Part shown: positions 27,777-62,160 of the stretch, piece by piece
How the letters are laid out: every line of letters starts with the position of its first letter
Numbering within the stretch: position 1 is the stretch's first letter
Origin: Polytrichum commune
Lineage: Eukaryota > Streptophyta > Polytrichopsida > Polytrichales > Polytrichaceae
DNA: 64,000 nucleotides
Direction: 5' to 3'
Assembly (NCBI GenBank): GCA_950295325.1
Contig: OX485806.1
Coordinates: forward strand, 25,980,001 to 26,044,000
The notes under the pieces: generated by a model
Told to the model about the DNA's origin: nothing
Databases searched by the model: none
The model's input: the letters and a program-made list of their open reading frames with translations, nothing else
Program-made: the position numbers and the translations under genes

Positions 27777-28110
27777 TATGATGGCATATACCAATTTGTA
27801 AATGTATGTGTGCTTGTCTGGTTCTATGAAGCAATATGGCACGTGCCCAGGCTTCTTCCTTACTTCCCCTGTGACCCATAAATCTTCCTCGCAGACACCC
27901 CCAGAGCATCCCAACTCTTAAGCAGACTCCTCGATCTTCTTCACCTCCGCAACCCAGTTTCATTGTTCACATAGCTTGGGTTTGAGTCGATTACTCTCCA
28001 GTTCCTCTATTAAGGTTTGCTACATTATTAGTGATCGCAATCGAGGTGAGTGGTCCCCAAAGAGTGAACTTGCAGTAATTTTGGAACCTCATAATTGTTG
28101 TGCAACCAAG

Positions 28111-28787
28111 ATGGACACATTGAGACGCGCTGATGCCGATGTCGCCGCAGCCACGAGCTAACGCTAGGTGGCGCATGAACAGGTAAAAGGTTTTTCCATT
28201 CTGAAGTGGTTGTGTTGTGTTTTAGCTTGTGGTGTGAAGCTCAACGACATTGATGTCAAAGAGCAACCAGAAGCTATATGGATTCTGCTGTGGCACAAGA
28301 AGCATGATACCTTGCGATGTCATTGCCGCGCTGCATATTGTTTGTACTGGAATAATGGCCACTGTCCTCCCATTAAGTTTGTCACTTTATTGGTAAATTA
28401 GAAATAGCGGTATTGTTGGAAAAGTTGTGGATCCTGTATCCAGCGTGTCCTCTTTATGTGAACACTTCCCTCTAAAGGTTTCACATAATCCAGAGATGCA
28501 TTTGAATGCTCGGTCTTCCGCGTCTGTCTGCAAAGCTTAGAGTGCGCAACAACATTCAACAGAAAGTGACAATAAATATGTGTCCATGTTAATCTTGCAG
28601 GCACAACCATCTGGTTAGGCTGCTGTGGCAGAAGAACAATATTACTCACCCCGTTGGCTACCAGGAGGCGAAGACTAGGGCATGGTTCAACTACATTAAC
28701 CCTCTCTTCTACATGTGTCGCAATCCAGAACAACCTCACCCGCGTCGGCCGAAGGCGGAGGGCCATATAAAGGAGGAGCTAAACTGA
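28111..28787 (+). pseudogene. Small two-exon basic protein family, copy A (frameshifted)
   Basis: Exon 1 (28111-28182) opens MDTLRRADADVAAAT, then shifts frame because 8 bases are missing relative to copies C and D (72 versus 80 bp). It still ends GCATGAACAG before GTAAAA. Exon 2 (28601-28787) begins right after TTGCAG and stays open. It keeps the family core (THPVGYQEAKTRAWFNYINP, LFYMCR), but its C-terminus is diverged (PRRPKAEGHIKEELN) and lacks the NNLGG..GRRR ending. The function of the family is unknown. The copy looks inactive. Confidence 0.82.
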
Positions 28788-29404
28788 AGCTTTCAGCGAC
28801 TGTGGCTTCGACAAATGAAGAGCTTATATCAGGAACATATGCATTGCTAAAGTCTTTCTACCTTGAGAGATTTGTATAGAATAAAGTGTTGAAAGTCCTC
28901 ACTGAAATCATAATTCGTGCTGCAATTATTCTGTCGTTTGAAAGTCTCTAATTAATTCGAGGTTTATCAAGAAACACTGTACCTTAGGTAGGCATTCCAC
29001 TCTTTGTGGTGTATCTGGAGTATATGTGCATTGCCAGATATGTTGATTGGCAGTTGCATTTCAGCAATCCACATTTGGTACTTCATTGTGCAGAACATGA
29101 AGGGATTCTTCCAAATCATATACTTTTTCACATTTATACTGGTGAGGTGTTGGGCAATGTGTTCCGACTGATTTTTGCACTGACAAATGCCTTCTCTAAG
29201 TATGTGATCGATCTTTAGATTCAGGATAGCATAGGTAACACCAGGTGGAACTGAATCATACTGTTCATTGAACAAGGAGATAGACAAGCCTTAACATAGG
29301 ATGAAGGCTAAGCTAGTCTATTTATGAGGGACGGCAAATTAAACTACAGGGTGCTGCTAATCTTCATGGAGGAATTGACAGTAGAACATACAGTGAAATT
29401 GTAG
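28788..29404. other. Spacer between copy A and the U2 gene
   Basis: No gene was recognised. It holds the presumed 3' region of copy A and the distal U2 upstream sequence. Confidence 0.5.
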
Positions 29405-29455
29405 ATCCCATAAGTTTGGTGTCTAGTTTGGTATTGGCAAGGTGACCATATAATG
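29405..29455 (+). promoter_or_regulatory. U2 promoter: USE-like element and TATA box
   Basis: ATCCCATAAG at 29405-29414 resembles the plant upstream sequence element (RTCCCACATCG) in its first six bases and sits near -70. CATATAATG at 29447-29455 gives a TATA box near -29. The distance of roughly 35 bp between them fits plant RNA polymerase II snRNA genes rather than the shorter polymerase III spacing. Confidence 0.6.
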
Positions 29456-29477
29456 TGAAATTGAGCACAGTTGAAGT

Positions 29478-29670
29478 ATACCTTTGTCGGCCTTTTGGCT
29501 AAGATCAAGTGTAGTATCTGTTCTTATCAGTTTAATATTTGATACGAGGCTCATCGAGCTTCATGATATTAATCTAATATTTGATCGGGTGTGAGCTCAT
29601 GTGGCAGCTTGCTGCCAGGGCCCGCAAGTGTCGCCTTGGAACTGCACTACTTCCTTGGCCGGCGCAACCC
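29478..29670 (+). ncRNA. U2: U2 spliceosomal snRNA
   Basis: The 5' end ATACCTTTGTCGGCCTTTTG and the stretch GGCTAAGATCAAGTGTAGTA are the near-invariant U2 5' domain. They include the branch-point recognition sequence GTAGTA at 29511-29516. Stem IIa (TTCTTATCAGTTTAATATTTGAT) follows. A 3' hairpin TGGCAGC/GCTGCCA and a final stem GCCTTGG...CCTTGGC complete the usual plant-like layout at about 193 nt. The Sm site is TAATATTTGA, a weaker match to the usual A(U)nG. The 3' end is estimated. U2 pairs with the intron branch point during splicing. The promoter at -70 and -29 suggests a real locus, but the Sm variant leaves room for a diverged copy. Confidence 0.92.
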
Positions 29671-30479
29671 AAAACCCTTAGGGGAACCAAATAATTTAAA
29701 TAGCACCTTGCCGAACTATGTTCATCATGATGTGTAGTAGATGAATGTAATTAAGTTTTTATTGATTTACGAATTTGGCAATTGCTATGTGAAATTTTCA
29801 TGTACTATCCCCATAAACAACTGCTTGCCAGGCTGTAGGAGTTTTGGATCCCAATCTCGAAGGGCTACGGCAGTTTGACGCAACAGAGTTGAGACTCGCG
29901 GTATACGCGTTGGAATTTAGAAACAGTAAGTTAGGCTTCCTGCGTTAGGGTTTGAAAAGAGCGCCTCCCATATTCATATCACCTTCACCCGTTCTCTCTC
30001 TCGCGCAGTATATAGGTCTCTCAAAGCTCTGTGGTCCCTCATCTCACTTGAGTGTCATGCTCTATGAGGTTTGGGCATGTTGAGTATTGTGCTCTGGTGG
30101 TCGTATGGTGTTTAGGACGCTTAGGAATTTTTCTGACCCGAATGCCTCTCGAGGTATTTGGTGATGCTTTAGGATCTAGGGTTCAGTATGCTGTATTTGT
30201 ATGATCTTGAATTTTTGTGACGAGGTGACGGAGGCCTCTGGTATCTGGTGTTGTGAGCATCCCTTGTGTTTTTGTAATGATGCAGCACCTCGTAAACGAG
30301 GCCGATAATAATTTGGTCAGGCGCGACGTGGGTTGGGTTGTCCCTTCACCATTACTTTTGTCCTGTTCACAGAATGTGGCAAGGTTGGGATTCCAATTAG
30401 AGTTTCAGTGTCAGTTCATAGTGTTATCTTGATTTCGTAGTTTGGCCGATAATTGTTACCTGTAGGGTGGAATTGCATG
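29671..30479. other. U2 downstream region, possible second promoter
   Basis: No coding frame was recognised. CTCTCTCTCGCGCAG followed by TATATAGG at 30009-30016 looks promoter-like. Short stems such as CCTCG-TAAA-CGAGG (30289-30302) occur. Confidence 0.4.
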
Positions 30480-30560
30480 CGGCGCTGAGACCTTGTTTGA
30501 CAAGGAGAACCTGGTGAGTGTGTCGTAGAATTCTATGACGCGAAACCGTTACCCTGCAAT
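30480..30560 (+). repeat. About 80-bp duplicated motif, copy 1
   Basis: It contains a 24-bp identical core at 30489-30512 with a CCTTG-TTTGA-CAAGG hairpin, followed by ATTCTATGACG. The second copy is at 31270-31345. No reading frame is conserved. Confidence 0.75.
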
Positions 30561-31269
30561 GTTAGTAGTTGTCCAGGTGTAAGAAGGTGACGAGGAGAAA
30601 TTGTCGCCCCAGTCCTAAGCGAGTGCTTGTGCTCCATGAGGATTGACTCTTTCGAAATGTGATTCTGATTCTGATAAATTTATTAATTAGGATCCAAGGG
30701 AAGTGATCATGATGCATCACGCGACGTCCGAACGTATTTATTCGCGTGTGGATTTGCGAAACATGATTTGCACGTCAGTCTGATCCCTTGGGTTGTGGAT
30801 GCAATGGATGCAGTGTTAGGGTATCCGATGTTGCCGAAACATCTGATCTTTGTGATGTGGAATTATGAGTACCATATTTGAGCTGAGGCTTATGTTGGTA
30901 GCAGGTTAGGTTGTGGTTGATGTGACCGGAGAAGCCCGGGGGACGACAGAAAACATAGAACTAATTTGAGAAATTAGTGAGGAACAAAATAGTCAGTACC
31001 AATTGACTGCTTTCTCTATAAGAAATGCATTGTCGTACTCCTTCTGCGAGCGCAGGCGAATCTTTTGTTTAGTTGTAACATATAATGTTTTGGAATTGAA
31101 ACGCTTCACGGAGTGCTTCTCGGGGGGTTCTCATTCTGAATGAGTTCGGCGAGATTATTCAGGTGCAGGTTCTTTTGTATGTTAACATGATGGTGTGATA
31201 GTCCAAAATGCCTGGGGTGGGATAATTGAGACTTGGCTGATGATGGTGACCTCTAGGGCGCAGTTGCAG

Positions 31270-31345
31270 GTGGTGCTGGGACCTTGTTTGACAAGGAGAA
31301 CCTCCTCAGTAGGCCCCTGCATTCTATGACGTGAAAATGTAGACT
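31270..31345 (+). repeat. About 80-bp duplicated motif, copy 2
   Basis: It shares the 24-bp core (31280-31303) and the downstream ATTCTATGACG with copy 1, 791 bp away. The rest of 30560-32030 shows no recognised gene. A 68-codon open frame at 31613-31819 has no recognisable motif. Confidence 0.75.
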
Positions 31346-32030
31346 GAAGCCTCTTCCAAGTAGAAAACTTATCCTGTTGATGTATGAAGCGGGTGATGGA
31401 AGAAAAAATTCGAAAGCATCTAAATGTATGAATCATGTGGAATTGTACCATCTTTCGACTGAAGCTCATAAAAATGAGCTGGAAGGTATATGAAAGGTTG
31501 GTCTGTTCGAGAGAAAACAGTAAGTTGTTATGAGAAAACAGTGAGTAACGAAACATGCCGTACCAACTGACAGCTAATCCCCGTAATTTCAACTTTTGCT
31601 CCTAATTAGCGTTTGCGAACTGGGTCCGTGGAATATGATTTTCAAATTGAGACCTTCGCTGAACTGTATAACCGCCGTCATTGGTATGGAAATAAATGTG
31701 GCGTCTCTTCAAATGTATTGGTGAACTATGGACAAAGACCAACTTATGTCATTCGAGAGAACGGACTTTCCATGCCAAAAGCTTGTCAGCCCACATGTTG
31801 CCCATCAGTTTGCACGTGAAAAAGCTTAAATTCTTGAATGGGGTACATCCCTTTAATTTTTGCACAATAGCGTAAAACACAATGTGGACTGTTGATGCAC
31901 AGTACCAATCAGCTTAAAAGCTGGCGATGCACATTCTCTGCAGATACACACAAGAAGTGGTGAATCTATGGAATGGTGTTTTTGTACAAATCTCTCCAAA
32001 TAACAAGAACCTTTGCAATGCATCTCTTTT

Positions 32031-32726
32031 CTACATAGCCCTCCGTCTTCTGCCGACGCCTGAGAGATTGTTCTTGATGCGGCGGACGTAGAAGAGGGGA
32101 TAGATGTAGTTGAATCTTGCCCTAGTCTTGGCCTTGTGGTAACCCACTGGGTGTGTCATCTTGTTCTTCTGCCAGCGCAGCCTAGCCAGAGGGTTGTGCC
32201 TGCCAGATGAACATTGAAACAGATAGAGTCAGCAATCCTGTACGCATCTTTTGTTGCATGTTGTTGCGCACCCTACTGTTTGCACACAGAAGCTAAATAC
32301 CATGTATTCAATGCACCTCTGGATCATATAAAACCCTGAGAGGGGAATTTCGCAAACAGGAGGAGACACTGTGCACAGGCCTCCAACAGAGTCTCGATGT
32401 CTAAACCAAGAAATTAACGAAATGGGAGAACAGGACCATCAATTCAGTGCAAACATGTTCGCAACGGTTACGAGAACATGCAGCACGATTAAATCGCGAG
32501 GTATTCTTCTTCTTACGCTATCGCAGAATAAACCCCAGGGCTTCTGGACGTTGCTCTTTCAACAATGTGGTTGAGGTTCAATCACAAGCTTAAAAAAAGA
32601 AGCTATGAATGGCAAATTATTTCTGCCTAACGATTGAATATGTACCTGTTCATGCGCCACCTAGCTGTAGCGCGTGGGGTGTGTGGCTGCGGCGACGTCG
32701 GCATCGGCTCTCCTCAATGTGTCCAT
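32031..32726 (-). pseudogene. Small two-exon basic protein family, copy B (frameshifted)
   Basis: Exon 1 (32726-32646) opens MDTLRRADADVAAATH like copy A, but has one extra base before the RATARWRMN segment (81 versus 80 bp). The main frame therefore stops at codon 22. Exon 2 (32199-32031) is fully open and well conserved (RLRWQKNKMTHPVGY, KTRARFNYIYPLFYVRRI, NNLSGVGRRRRAM). The GT and AG sites are intact. An in-frame internal ATG in exon 1 could still give a shortened protein of about 77 residues. It faces copy A across the U2 gene. Confidence 0.82.
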
Positions 32727-32916
32727 GTTGATTGCACAACAACGATCTCCACTTTCAAAAAAACCGCTCCTGTTCAGAGGATTGAATGAGTTGCAAAATC
32801 GATGACTTCACAAAGAATTCCTCGCTGGTCACTACGCTTACACCAAATTCTGAATGCTAAGCTGAAGAATGCGAAGAAACTGGGATGCTGTGGGAGTAGC
32901 TTTGCTGCGACGAGAG

Positions 32917-50203: not shown

Positions 50204-50970
50204 TTAATACATGGCGGTCGTACCCGTCGTTGTCCTACGCCTTCCGGCGCCACCAAGGTTGTTCCGAATGCGACGGATGTAGAACAAAGGGTTGATGTAG
50301 TTGAATCTTGCCCTGGTTTTCGCCTTCTCATATCCCACGGGATGCGTCACTTTGTTCTTCTTCCAGCGCAATCTCGTCATAGGGTTGTACCTGCACCAAC
50401 ACAAAACAAACAAAGAATATATATGTCAACAAACTTATTTTCAAGGAACAAAAACAATTCTAGCGTTCACGATATGCTATGCAAAAGATCAAACATAATC
50501 AGTTATTTGATCGTCGGTTAAATAAATGAAGAATTTGTCAAATGGAAGTGTTCCTTTAAGTGCGTTCATGCGCCATCTTGCCTTAGACAACGTCAACAAA
50601 CTTATTATCAAGAATCATAACGAAAGTTGCTTCGGACATAAAATCAAGCGTTCGCTGTATGCAATGAATCAAGTATGTTCAGAAATCGGTCCTTGGTTGA
50701 GGGTTTTTAAATCTGTCAAATGGAAGTGTTCATGTGCCAGGAAGCGTCAACAAACTTATTCAGGAATCGACGAGAGTTGCTTCGGGGATAAAATCAAGCG
50801 TTCGTGGTCAGCAACGAATTTAGGAATTTCAAGAAATACATCTTTGGTTTAGAAAATTTGGAATTCTGTCAAATGGAAGTGTTCATCTACCTGTTCATGC
50901 GCCATCTTGCGGTAGCCCGCGGGTGAGATGCGGTCTGCACATCGGCATCAGCACGTCTCAAGGCGTCCAT
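50204..50970 (-). CDS. Small two-exon basic protein family, copy C (intact)
   Basis: Exon 1 is 50970-50891 (80 bp, ending AACAG before GTAGAT). Exon 2 is 50390-50204 (after GTGCAG, ending TAA). The 500-bp intron splits an arginine codon. The product is 88 residues: MDALRRADADVQTASHPRAT, then ARWRMNRYNPMTRLRWKKNK, VTHPVGYEKAKTRARFNYIN, PLFYIRRIRNNLGGAGRRR, and a short threonine-rich tail. It is strongly basic, with no cysteine, signal peptide or membrane span. The start is fixed by conservation in all four copies. Function is unknown; the charge hints at nucleic-acid binding. Its ATG lies 118 bp from that of a divergent gene at 51089. Confidence 0.82.
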
Positions 50971-51088
50971 GGCTTCAAAGCACTATATGGATTGTGCGAT
51001 CCAACTAACACTATTCACTTTCTCGAAAGCCGATTCAATACGCGAAGGGACACCTACAGTCCGGCAAGCTCGAGAAACAATGTAAACG

Positions 51089-51415
51089 ATGTCTGAAACC
51101 GAACTCAAGGTGATATTGGTAGCGAAGCGGATGAATGCTGTGATGAGTAGACCTCTTCGGTCGGACCTTATAGGGCGAAATGGCTACGTTCCAGAGGCAG
51201 AGGAAAGTGAAGACGTGGAAGGAAGACAAGTGGCACTTCTCGTGGCGGGTTCCGATTGGCCCGAGCTAAAAGAGAGACGCCGCCAGATCATGACCACGTG
51301 GGGAGATGATCTGACGTGGCTGTATACAGGTGGCAGCGTCAGACTCCCTCAATTGGTGAGATATTTGACTGAGGGTGTGCGGGCCAGGGCCAAGTTAGAT
51401 TTCTTGCTCTTTAAG
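51089..51415 (+). CDS. First exon of an unknown gene, divergent from copy C
   Basis: An open frame of 109 codons from ATG at 51089 ends at TTTAAG before a GTAATC donor. Beyond the donor the frame degenerates into a poly-leucine/phenylalanine stretch, as expected for an intron. The peptide is charged, with MSETELKVILVAKRMNAV at the start and LKERRRQIMTTWGDDLTWL and LPQLVRYLTEGVRARAKLDF later. No family was recognised and no downstream exon was identified. Confidence 0.5.
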
Positions 51416-52680
51416 GTAATCGCACATCAATCTCTGTGTAAATGCAATTACTATATTATAACACATAACTTCTTGTTCTTGTTCTTGTTCTTGTTGTTGG
51501 TTAATTTGACATGGTAATTAACATCAGAGACCTTGAATTAATTCAATGCGATCAATTTGGAATGAATTAAGCATAAATTTATGGGCACACGTTTTTATTT
51601 TTCCCTTACACCTAAGTAATATTGATTTTCAGAGGTAGAGCTGAAGTTAATGCATTGAACATTTGATTTATAACTTTGATTTACTCTATGAGAAACAACT
51701 GTAATAGATTATGTGAATGTTTCGTTGATTACCCATGAGTGAATGTTCACAACACCTACCAAAGTGGAGCGCGAAGCAAGAGAAAGGAGGGTGAAAATGT
51801 TGAATATTGTTGTAGAGCTTAGTGATTTTTATTTCTAGAATACGTAACTTCTAAATTGGGCTAAGACTCGTAGAGACCCCAAATAGTCTAGTAACCTTAC
51901 ATTGGGATAAGTTAGCAAACAATCTAATAAGGGGGTTGATTTAAATCCCTACTCCGACAGTTGATGTTAGGAAACCAAACCGCTATCCACCGTCTCCTCC
52001 ATTGATCTCTTCTCACATGTTATCATGTAAGTTATTAAGATATGCGGGTGCTATTTGGTTAACTTTTTCCTTGCTCTTCATCTTCTCTTGATTGGGTTTA
52101 TGTCTTCAAATTCAAGTTAATGCACTAGCGAAACCATGATGGAACATCCACAAAAATTAGATTGAAAATTGGACCTCCCATGAGTTAGTAATGGTTATTG
52201 CAAGTGCATGTTTGTTGAATCTTCCTTAAGTACATACACAAGGGTCCTCCAAATTTATGTTCACTATTGAATGTAAAGTACTTAATTAAAATTTGAAGAT
52301 GTACTCCAGTCTCTTTTACACATGTATCTTTATGGTGTTTGTTTCTTTATCCTCACCTAACCACACACCAATCAAATATAGGTGTCCGATTAAGAAAAGT
52401 AACCGAATAACACCAGCATGGGTACCTTAGGGCCATCATCACTTGGCCTGCTAGCCTTTGAATCTAATTTCTGCTATGGAGAAAGTTTCGATACAGACTC
52501 AAGCGCCCCCAACAAATACAGTTCTAGAAATATCGCCCCACATTTCCGGTGGGTCCCACCCAGCCAAGTGGCACAATCTTTGCCTCCAAAGCACTCTCAC
52601 CACCTGTCAATGCCACGTCGACCCGCCACATGTCCCCTTCCTGTGTGGTCAGCCTCATCAAAGCCCCTTTGAGACGTTGA
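51416..52680. other. Intergenic or intron DNA
   Basis: No exon was recognised. A piece at about 52340-52400 (CACCAATCAAATATAGGTGTCC) resembles MULE interior sequence near 4290 and 24690, so it is partly transposon-derived. Confidence 0.4.
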
Positions 52681-52685
52681 GACCA

Positions 52686-52694
52686 CCATAAAAG
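52686..52694 (+). promoter_or_regulatory. TATA-like box for copy D
   Basis: CCATAAAAGG lies about 200 bp upstream of the copy D start codon and is followed by a leader with CT repeats. The spacing is like that of copy B. Confidence 0.45.
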
Positions 52695-52885
52695 GAGAGC
52701 ACTGTCTGTCCGAAACACACAATCATCTGAACCCTACACATCCTCTCATCTGCATACTAGCTTTGCATCTTCCAAAAGTGTGATCAGTGAGTTTTGTTAG
52801 CTTACATATCTCTCTCTCTCCCAGTGCGAAACAGCATTCTTCTGTTGGGATCATCACAAAACTCTTGTGCATTCGGCTCGACAAA

Positions 52886-53639
52886 ATGGACGCTCTAAGG
52901 CGCGCAGATGCCGATGTGACCACAGCTACTCACCCACGAGCGACTGCCAGGTGGCGCATGCAGAGGTATAATTAGTTGATACTCAGTTTCAAGTTCAATG
53001 CCTGCTTGATGAACTCCAATAGCATGTTGGGTCTGTTAGCTTATACACCAAATGCGTTCTTGTGCATCTCAACAATCCATCGCAACTGCCGACGCAAAAT
53101 GTGTTGAAGGGAATCGAATTGGTAGCCAGTTGTCCCAAAACCGCAATCAAAAGTTCTATGATTGGCGACGAAGTAGAATTTATATATGCGTTCTCTCACT
53201 GAATAAGTCGTGTGTTTTTGCCTTGATTACCCACACTATACTCACTCGCAATAGACAGGTCACGATGACAGACAATTTCAATGGACAAATTGTAGTGTTA
53301 GTATATTGTAACTATTTCAACGTGCTTTCAGTTGTAGTACAGATTTTGGTGTCCAGTTAGCATCCTTCTTCCCAAATCTGGTTAGAAGATTTGATGATGA
53401 GCTCGCCTTAATTTTTTGGCACATAGAATGGTGTGACTCTAATTTGTGTTTCCCTGTGCAGGCACAACCCCATCTCTCGGTTGCGGTGGAAGAAGAATAA
53501 GGTGACCCACCCTGTGGGATATGAGAAGGCCAAGACTAGGGCGAGGTTTAATTATGTGAACCCCCTCTTCTACATTCGCCGTATCCGGAACAACCTTGGT
53601 GGGGCTGGTCGGCGGAGGACCACAACCGTTGCATACTAG
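52886..53639 (+). CDS. Small two-exon basic protein family, copy D (intact)
   Basis: Exon 1 is 52886-52965 (80 bp) and exon 2 is 53462-53639, with a 496-bp GT..AG intron (donor GTATAA, acceptor TGTGCAG). The joined frame is 85 codons plus stop. The sequence runs MDALRRADADVTTATHPRAT, ARWRMQRHNPISRLRWKKNK, VTHPVGYEKAKTRARFNYVN, PLFYIRRIRNNLGGAGRRR. It differs from copy C mainly at the ends and by conservative changes, which suggests selection on protein sequence. Intron phase and exon 1 length are identical in C and D. No known domain was recognised. It lies 1.9 kb from copy C in the opposite orientation. Confidence 0.85.
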
Positions 53640-58554: not shown

Positions 58555-59305
58555 GGTTTGGGTCGACCTACCCAAACCTTGTGGCACGATGGGATCATGG
58601 TCATCCAGACTCCATCCAAACAGTGGGGATAAATTGGGTCGACCGACCCAAACCTTTTCGCAAGATGGGTTTAGGCTCATAACAGAGAGCACTGACACAC
58701 TGGGGATGGATTGGGTAGACCGTCCTAAATTATGTAAGGGCAATGGGATGTGTCAAACCTAGTACATGCCCACTGTGGGATAAGGTTTGGGTCGACCGAC
58801 CCAAACCTTATAGGGCAGGAAGGGCTCAAAGTCCACCCTAGTACCTGCCTCACGTGGGGGTGGGTTTGGGTCGACCGACCCAAACCTTGAGGGGTAAGAT
58901 GGACTCCGTGTCCACCCTAGTACCTGCCTCATGAGGGTATAGGTTTGGGTCGACCGACCCAAACCTTGAGGGGTAAGATGGACTCCGTGTCCACCCTAGT
59001 ACCTGCCTCATGAGAGTAAAGGTTTCGGTCGACCGACCCAAACCTTGAGGGACAAGATGGACTCCGTGTCCACCATAGTACCTGCCTCAGGAGGGTATAG
59101 GTTTGGGTCGACCGACCCAAACCTTGAGGGCCAGGATGGGCTCCTTGTCCACTCTAGTACCTGCCTCACGAGGGGATAGGTTTGGATCAAGCTGAAACCC
59201 GCCCACACTAGTGGAGGGGTTTGGGTCGACCGACCCAAACCTGATCAGGGTCAGGCTGAAACCCGCCCACAGTAGCGGAGGGGTTTGGGTCGACTGACCC
59301 AAACC
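58555..59305. repeat. 79-bp satellite carrying a conserved dyad
   Basis: About ten units each contain GGTTTGGGTCG, two bases, then CGACCCAAACC. Exact 79-bp spacing holds for dyads at 58784, 58863, 58942, 59021 and 59100. Further dyads are at 58555, about 58631, about 58704, 59218 and 59282. The rest of the unit contains CCTAGTACCTGCCTCA. The array starts about 190 bp upstream of the DUF7869-like gene start. Open frames across it are repeat artefacts. Confidence 0.93.
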
Positions 59306-62160
59306 TGATAAGAGTCACGCTAAAACCCTCAAAACCCGGCGGATAATGCGGCGGATAATGTGGCAGATAATCCGAAATGTGTTGTTTTTGAGCTCATTGC
59401 AAAGTTCACGGTGGGCTTCCATGCTGTGGGTAGGTGCTCATGAACTTGCATGCTGTGGATAAGTGCTAATGAACGGCAGCATGCACGAACCTTGAAGTAT
59501 AGCTCCGACTAAGAGTTCTCTCTACGAATTCAAGAGTGGAAGAAGAGCAAAAAAGGACAGACTTTTGAGGGGTGCGTCCCTTTATACTATCCACCTCCGT
59601 TTCTCGGACTTCCTCATTGGATGCCTTTCCCGCCTTGTTCTCCTGCAGAGGTTATTTCAAACCTCCTGACATAATTCCCCGTTTTTTTTTTATAGTAGAA
59701 AATGCGCATCTTTCAATGCCCCTCTGATACCCCAGCCGTCATATGACTTAGTCTATGATATTTAATCCTTTTTTTTTTTGTCTTGTGTGGATATGACATA
59801 CGCCGTTGGGAGGAAGGGTGGTGGCCACATTAATTTTTTCAAGTGTCATGACGGTATATTTTAACAAATATTTTAACTCCATTCAATGCTTTCAAGTGTA
59901 AACCTATTTAGGTGGGGTTTGGGCCATTTGGAGGCTGCAATTATGAAAGGGTTTCCAAGGCTTGAGGCCATTGTCGTGATGAATAAAATTATTTATTTGT
60001 CTCCCCTAAACCCTAAACCCTAGAACATTGCTCTATTATCTCGCATGCAAGTGTGCCAATGAGGAACGTATGTGGACGTTGTTAAAGGGATACTAACTAC
60101 CAATGTCGCTTTTTAGTTCAATCTGTTAATGATATTTGAATCCATCTTGAAGTTCACTTCAAGTTTACTAATGTGTGGCCTTCGTGGCTCTTCGTGGCGC
60201 CAACCATCAAATGACATTGCTAATTCCGTAATGAAATAACTACACAAAATATGGGGTGTGTGTTTCATTATATTTAGTGTTGTTACCACCCTACTATGCT
60301 CAACATTAATTTTTAAATCTTTGACAATTACTGTTACACATAAATGTGTCGCTTACCTTCTACTTTCACGTATATTTTTTCTTTTCACATCCTTCCTAAC
60401 ACTAATTGCAAACATGTAAATTCCACATATTACCATAGATGATACTTATTGTGAGAGTTTACATTTTATGTCACTGACTTTCATATGGTTATTGATATTT
60501 AGTGCATGCGCTTGTATATAGGGTATCAAACACTAGATATCATATTTTGTGTAGTTGGGTTTTGTAACTTAAGTTATTTGTGATTTGACCTGTCAAAAAA
60601 ATGTCCCTACAATAAATAACATATTTAGAGTTTGATACACTAAATACGAACGCATCTACTCAATACTAATACCACTATGAAAGTAAGTAACATCAAACAT
60701 TGTAAACTCAAACACTCAATATTATCTATGGTAATATGTTGAAGTTACATGTTTGAATATAGTGTTAGTAAGGATATGGAAAAAAAATGATAAAGAAAGA
60801 TCTCCAATATATCTTCCAATATCCTATAACAATATTTGTCAAAAAAATTAAAATTATTGTTGATGGGGGTAGACTGTCTCATTTTATGTGCCTATGACAT
60901 GCACCATTGGGAAGAAAATGATATTTGATAACTGATTTTGAGAACCCATCCTCCACAACTTCACATTGATGCATTGCATACAAATTAAATTATGTACTTC
61001 CAGGATATTACTCTACTTGGACTCAAATATTATGGTTTATTTCAAATAATATCTTGACAATATATGTGGCAACATTATGAAACTTCATATAGCTGAAGCC
61101 ACCAAATACAATTACAGTTTATGTCGTTATGAAGACTTTCACATGAGGACTTATACATTGAAAACAAGGAATTGATCTCATGACAAATTTGAATAAATTG
61201 GCCAACTTTCAATTTGCAACAATAAAATGAGATAAGCTTTAAAAGAACATGTGACGTTTGTAATGTGTGCACACAACGTTGATCCATTGTCCAACATACA
61301 AGTGTGGCAATGGATAACCTATGTGAAAGGCATTAATGGGAATTCCATCACGAATAGGACTTTTTAGTTCACTCTTTCAAGGATGTTTGAAACTATCATG
61401 AAGTCCATTTGAAATCTAGTATGAAGATCATATATACTATAATCAAGTTATTATACTCTTCTTTTTAGACAGACATTGTTATAACTTAATATTGGTTGAC
61501 ATGATCGTGAGCACATATGATTAGGATGTTGTCAAGACAATATACATTTGTATTGGAAACTACAAGCACTAAGGCCCTGTCATTTAACCTTATGTGCCAT
61601 TCATTTAAGGCTTGCGGTGTTTAGGGTTTAGGGTTTAGGTTGGAGGGATCATCGAACATCAAGCTTAATGCTTACATGGCTTCATATGATGTTGAACTCC
61701 ATGGGGTTGCAGTAGATAAATTTGTAATCTTTGTGTATCTCCCATGTACTTCAAATGTCAACTTCTATGTATTGATATAAATGTTGAATTTAATGCTACT
61801 TGGGTGGGTAATATCCATTGTAGGCTAGAGCCTTATCTTCTACGAACTTGGGTTATAGAAATTACAATAGAGAGCACTAAACCCTTGACCATGTAAATTG
61901 TCACCATATTTTAATTGTTGCACCGTGCAATTGCATTTGAGGATTGCAATATACTTATGAAACACTCCTCTTAGACTTTGTATCGCTCTCATCTTACTCC
62001 ATATGACTACAATATTCAAATACTAAAACAAATAATGGATTCATTCTATGATGTAAGCAATTCCAACGCGGGACCATTGAATTGAACACCATTAAAATCA
62101 GAGTTGGTGATGGTGTTAATTTTGTGCAATACCTTAGGCTATGTTGCTTTTCGATTTTTG
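59306..62160. other. Intergenic AT-rich DNA
   Basis: No gene was recognised. Short plant telomere-type words occur at 60005-60022 (CCCTAAA) and 61621-61639 (TTTAGGG), too few to be an interstitial telomere array. Confidence 0.5.

Follow-up and report, generated by a model that had tools for sequence, protein, structure and literature searches.

The 64,000-nucleotide stretch of Polytrichum commune DNA analysed here (contig OX485806.1, positions 25,980,001 to 26,044,000 of the forward strand; hereafter the window, with positions counted from its first letter) contains two intact genes, C and D, which encode small basic proteins of 88 and 85 aa, respectively. Gene D lies on the + strand, with an 80-bp first exon at 52886..52965, encoding MDALRRADADVTTATHPRATARWRMQ followed by the first two bases of an Arg codon, a 496-bp intron at 52966..53461 and a second exon at 53462..53639 that runs to a TAG stop codon. 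Gene C is on the − strand, with an 80-bp first exon at 50891..50970, a 500-bp intron at 50391..50890 and a second exon at 50204..50390 running to TAA. Both introns are of the GT-AG type and in phase 2, splitting an Arg codon (AG/G in each gene). These coordinates bear out the first-pass annotation, which had described two opposite-strand genes with 80-bp first exons and a common intron phase within an Arg codon; the near-identical cores that it quoted were located in the two proteins, which are 89% identical, and with D as the query of the genome-wide search C was retrieved with E-values of 5.6e-31 (exon 2) and 4.8e-8 (exon 1). Of its further statement that the genes share introns of about 500 bp, the lengths are right, but the introns are not alike, and their near-equal size looks like a coincidence, because the C intron is built up by repeats of ~152 bp that are 77% alike, one unit carrying a copy of the end of exon 1 without the GT (a decoy). 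Tandem Repeats Finder gave no row in the C intron. The introns of the other four two-exon genes of the family measure 119, 308, 473, and 677 bp.

The genome searched comprises 408 Mb in 64 contigs, and the window lies on the contig called C4 below. When D was run against it, 24 matches at the level of single exons reached E ≤ 0.001; they lie on C3, C4, C5, and C6, and 13 of these rows make up eight intact genes, C to J, spread over these four large contigs. Six of them have two exons, namely C, D, E (C4:27.432 Mb, 82 aa), F (C4:27.429 Mb), G (C6:5.82 Mb, 95 aa), and H (C5:42.320 Mb), and two are intronless, I (C5:42.324 Mb) and J (C3:37.37 Mb), both of 64 aa, the proteins of the whole family ranging from 64 to 95 aa. 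The split Arg is kept in all two-exon members though its letters vary, with AG/G also in E and G, AG/A in F, and CG/C in H. The residues M1, LRRADA, R22, HP, K51, R53, Y58, NP, FY, and N71 (D numbering) are invariant in the eight proteins, and the start codons have a purine at −3 in seven of the eight genes (J has C) and G at +4 in all. An origin of I and J by simple intron loss is not supported, as residues flanking the junction are missing on both sides. With J and G as queries no further member was found at E ≤ 0.001 beyond the known places and exon 1 of G, the four new places having E-values of 0.04–4 only. On C4 the members of each intact pair face head to head, the two starts being separated by 1.9 kb in C/D and by 2.9 kb in E/F. 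A split that groups C with D has support of 64 in the unrooted protein tree and of 60 in the DNA tree, and E is not paired with F in either. Gene G is convergent with a light-harvesting complex (LHC) gene ~1.8 kb away (C6:5821484-5824719).

The likeness between C and D is essentially confined to the exons, which are 75% and 76% identical (z of 4.7 and 10.2 against shuffled sequences). Identity in the introns is 56% versus 54% after shuffling (z 0.9), a value at which an intron common to C and D was rejected; the downstream flanks give 54% versus 54% (z 0.4), and the upstream flanks are barely alike (55% versus 53%, z 2.0). By simple counting, the proportion of changed synonymous sites (pS) between the two genes is 0.80, with dS beyond correction, and that of changed non-synonymous sites (pN) is 0.07, in agreement with the earlier remark that the differences are concentrated at synonymous sites. 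The dN/dS comparison suggested with that remark yields 0.028 by maximum likelihood (ML), and ω = 1 is rejected (2ΔlnL 115, p 7.5e-27). The same holds for all 21 pairs formed by seven of the intact genes (gene E excluded), where ω ranges from 0.006 to 0.096 and ω = 1 is rejected with p at most 1.6e-4, although the exact ML values are not to be pressed, because dS cannot be corrected in 15 of the 28 pairs examined by counting, and a dS of 2 or more is saturated and readable only as "old". By these measures the C/D pair is old and is subject to strong purifying selection. The recent local amplification that the first-pass annotation had proposed for them is contradicted, since their synonymous sites are saturated; in addition, their intact relatives are found on four large contigs.

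The remaining 11 of the 24 rows, at about ten loci, correspond to apparently broken or partial copies, several with frameshifts or stops. Exon 2 is open and exon 1 was not found at 26.115 and 26.156 Mb, and exon 1 stands alone at 26.074 Mb. In the window, copy A (28111..28780, + strand) has frameshifts in exon 1 and inside exon 2, and in copy B (32041..32726, − strand) exon 1 is frameshifted by one extra base and exon 2 is open. These two broken copies, in convergent orientation, belong to a cassette at 28050-32750 that also carries, all on the + strand, genes for U2 small nuclear RNA (29478-29672) and the small nucleolar RNAs (snoRNAs) snoU31b (30583-30665) and snoZ122 (30695-30790), which were amplified along with them. 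In the other cassette copies on C4, Rfam models detected two U2, snoU31b, and snoZ122 at 26.07-26.08 Mb, two U2 in the stretch examined at 26.115 Mb, none of the three genes at 26.156 Mb, and snoU31b at 27.44 Mb. Most of the longer matches that the window has to C4 26.07-26.16 Mb are 83–97% identical, those to the 27.44-Mb copy are about 69–88% identical, and four A-like exon-2 copies differ by pS of only 0.04–0.13 and pN of 0.01–0.04 over 40 codons. Judged from the 83–97% identity and the low pS of the A-like branch, the recent amplification is that of the A/B cassette with its U2 and snoRNA genes, and not that of C and D, in or beside which no U2 or snoRNA gene was found within the window. 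Elsewhere in the window, tandemly repeated units of 79 and 64 bp occur at positions 58750-59311, together with the palindrome GGTTTGGGTCGACCGACCCAAACC.

The A/B-type copies that ride on the amplified cassette, together with the ten or so broken or partial loci, might suggest that C and D are likewise non-functional or decaying, or chance open frames of a repeat family mistaken for genes, and the four A-like exon-2 copies, with two to seven changes per pair and pN/pS of about 0.25–1, would fit such an origin. However, C, D, and the six other intact genes are fully open, with conserved splice sites in the six two-exon ones, and the rejection of ω = 1 already contradicts this explanation, which we consider very improbable.

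The first-pass annotation knew of no named family with this core, and the searches agree: Pfam, NCBIfam, PDB, IMG/VR, the GTDB contigs, and paper text yielded nothing that could credibly be called a match. Against Pfam-A, D matched no family at E ≤ 10, and the eight members matched three families at that threshold, one member each, with a best E-value of 0.049 and none above the curated cut-off; PF00477, the family of the group-1 late embryogenesis abundant (LEA) proteins considered below, was not among these matches. In NCBIfam, D alone retrieved only yciY_fam (E 0.53, 10.5 bits against a cut-off of 30). A phmmer search of the PDB with D gave no match at E ≤ 10, and a profile of the eight members gave four, the best being mL184 (9g6k chain UI) with a non-significant E-value of 0.41. 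A short pattern was fitted by 127 stretches in the GTDB contigs and by 101 in IMG/VR, none of which was confirmed as a relative. Core strings such as NPLFYIRRI were not found in paper text, where the matches to other motif strings were unrelated, judged by title, and no published moss protein of a similar type came up as a candidate in literature searches. Within this range of searches, which did not extend to UniProt, NCBI nr, or plant genomes, the family appears undescribed; homologues may well be present there as entries for hypothetical proteins, and we class the family as a case of a conserved, uncharacterised plant small-protein family.

Upstream of the two-exon genes we identified a common promoter module, which consists of ACGTGGC/CACGTG with CACCTGTC/TGCCACCT and lies at about −200 to −450. 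For gene D it is found at 52600..52619 (+ strand) as CCACCTGTCA...GCCACGTC, with the CACGT core 272 bp before the ATG, and for gene C at 51295..51335 (− strand) as TGCCACCTG ... GCCACGTC ... G-box CACGTG, ~330–365 bp before the ATG. A de novo comparison of the 600-bp upstream regions, made after seven motif classes had been scanned, detected five heptamers present in at least five of the six two-exon genes (AGGTGGC, CAGGTGG, ACGTGGC, CCACGTC, and GTGCCAC), all within the module, where a mean of 0.14 was expected and none of 300 dinucleotide shuffles reached five. With all eight genes, six common heptamers were found against a mean of 1.39, a number reached by one shuffle in 300. The G-box CACGTG occurs within 1 kb of the start in six of the eight members (shuffle mean 1.15; 0 of 2000 shuffles reach six), at −330 in C, −318 in E, −392 in F, −316 in G, −325 in H, and −738 in J, and in the broken copies a G-box stands at −271 (A) and at −298 (B). 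The family is thus both conserved in its coding sequence and preceded by a conserved promoter module.

To place the module among other promoters of this genome, small control sets were used. Between −450 and −200, ACGTGGC is present in five of the six two-exon genes and in one of 14 histone H3 genes, and it occurs in 0.96% of 5,843 random 250-bp segments drawn from the window and the histone loci. Pooling the H3 genes with four cyclophilin genes and three LHC genes with doubtful starts gives one of 21 in the same interval and two of 21 within 600 bp; a further 11 LHC and four cyclophilin loci had no ATG and were dropped, so that the main comparison rests on the 14 H3 genes. LHC promoters were abandoned as a control because the matches start within the gene, and most offer no ATG that can be used. 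At C5:1751760-1846160, at least 14 LHC matches, all with the same PF00504 score, stand in tandem. The plastid contig, C8, is a 146.6-kb sequence that carries rbcL; its PsaB has 8htu, 6l35, and 7ksq, structures from Physcomitrium patens, as best PDB matches, in keeping with a moss, and a search for tektin as an indicator of lineage found nothing. The group-1 LEA genes of this genome (LEA_5, PF00477), which we take to be Em-like, resemble the family in this respect: of 19 matching rows, loci were taken for four with a readable start, and three of these carry ACGTGGC (at −249, −226, and −231), the fourth having a G-box alone (at −142).

Passages of PMC4663497 and PMC6433873 describe, for Physcomitrella, induction by abscisic acid (ABA) via basic leucine zipper (bZIP) factors acting on ABA-responsive elements (ABREs). 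As such elements serve in Physcomitrella and the same element precedes the LEA_5 genes here, the family probably belongs to an ABA/desiccation regulon, or else to a G-box/light regulon. The module could indeed mean light control alone, by factors of the HY5/PIF/GBF type, over a plastid- or photosynthesis-linked or general housekeeping protein, since CACGTG is found in five of the six two-exon promoters at −316 to −392, the neighbour of gene G is an LHC gene, and ACGTGGC is also listed as a light element (PMC4482647). However, beside the palindrome the common heptamer ACGTGGC is an ABRE core, and it is this heptamer that three of the four group-1 LEA genes share. The proteins of the family also have acidic residues among their first ten positions, which is untypical of transit peptides, and we consider this purely light-related explanation unlikely, although it is the strongest of the competing ones.

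The proteins themselves are rich in Lys and Arg (21 of 85 residues in D and 21 of 88 in C, with four acidic residues each), lack Cys, and have isoelectric points of 11.9 (D) and 11.8 (C). For the exon-2 part, with four sequences from the window as input, AlphaFold predicted three short helices with low confidence, which are a hint only. This composition, together with an ML ω of 0.03 and the proximity of broken relatives to U2 and snoRNA genes, could also point to a constitutively made protein that associates with ribosomes or mitoribosomes or resides in the nucleolus, the promoter motif being incidental. On the other hand, the PDB holds no significant sequence match, mL184 being the best, the U2 and snoRNA genes go with the A/B cassette, and the combination of telo-box core and site II element expected of a ribosomal-gene-type promoter was found in none of the eight 1-kb upstream regions, which leaves this option rather doubtful, slightly more so than light control.

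Weighing these data, our tentative proposal, to which we give somewhat less than an even chance, is that C and D are working members of an undescribed moss family of small basic proteins, driven by bZIP factors in an ABA/desiccation or a G-box light programme, and acting as stoichiometric nucleic-acid or ribosome binders. In this model, bZIP factors on the ACGTGGC/CACGTG module would activate the genes as part of the LEA-type ABA/desiccation programme, or else of a G-box light programme. Less firmly, the protein may act stoichiometrically and not as an enzyme, and is possibly nucleic-acid-binding: the Arg/Lys-rich short helices of exon 2 (RLRWKKNK / PVGYEKAKTRARFNY / NPLFYIRRIRNNL) might contact RNA, ribosomes, or DNA, whether in the nucleus or in the cytoplasm, and the invariant aromatic and Asn-Pro positions might pack the helices against each other. 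A narrower version, which we regard as improbable, is that of a moss-specific protein of the ABA/desiccation programme that would coat or protect nucleic acid or ribosomes when the plant is dry; it would have no kinship with the LEA proteins and would be conserved as structured proteins are. The DNA-protecting proteins of spores or tardigrades offer an analogy, as a functional likeness only.

Several observations weigh against the proposed bZIP-driven binder. Regarding its promoter, gene H has CACGTG without ACGTGGC, the intronless I and J have no ACGTGGC within 600 bp, and the bare ACGTG, present in six of six two-exon genes, is also found in 14 of the 21 controls taken together, counted over 600 bp (p 0.13). 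The G-box is present in three of the 14 H3 genes within 600 bp and in one of 14 between −450 and −200, the CACCTGTC part is in none of the four group-1 LEA upstream regions, and TGCCACC is in one of these four genes, at −647. The six promoters are not independent tests because the genes are paralogues, nor are the 14 H3 promoters, and both the double use of ACGTGGC as a light element and the LHC neighbour of gene G count on the same side. As for the protein, simple counting gives dN/dS of 0.045–0.396 in the 13 pairs for which dS is defined, the structure model is poor (predicted local distance difference test score, pLDDT, 63.6; predicted template modelling score, pTM, 0.32; exon 2 only), Foldseek gave no match for this low-confidence exon-2 model in the PDB, and the putative nucleic-acid binding is suggested by charge alone. 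Typical disordered LEA proteins, moreover, are not so strongly conserved.

Small genes without relatives are easily written off as annotation noise. This family shows strong constraint, a reading frame kept in eight paralogues, an intron position kept in six, and a LEA-like promoter element. Promoters like those of genes that protect against drying make C and D reasonable candidates for a desiccation experiment, and, if the predicted expression is true, a conserved non-LEA component would be added to the drying programme of mosses.

Among known systems, mL184 (9g6k chain UI) is, like the family, short and basic, with a weak resemblance over 29 residues, but the FNYxNPLFY core lies outside the matched part and the E-value is not significant. 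The orphan stress genes of Physcomitrella, as presented in PMC4301180 and PMC4663497, are similar in having no recognised relatives, and the family described here combines this with a stress-type promoter; the criteria for those gene sets are expression and the absence of homologues from other species. In relation to the group-1 LEA proteins of the same genome, the family differs in having no PF00477 match and in being Arg/Lys-rich with aromatic residues, and the LEA upstream regions do not contain CACCTGTC. An ABRE-type promoter, of the kind seen in LEA and hydrophilin-like genes, precedes five of the six two-exon members and neither of the two intronless ones within 600 bp. With the group-1 LEA genes, the family shares small protein size, a match in two exon-like pieces, a clustered arrangement, and the ACGTGGC element, which stands 226–249 bp before the ATG in three of those four genes.

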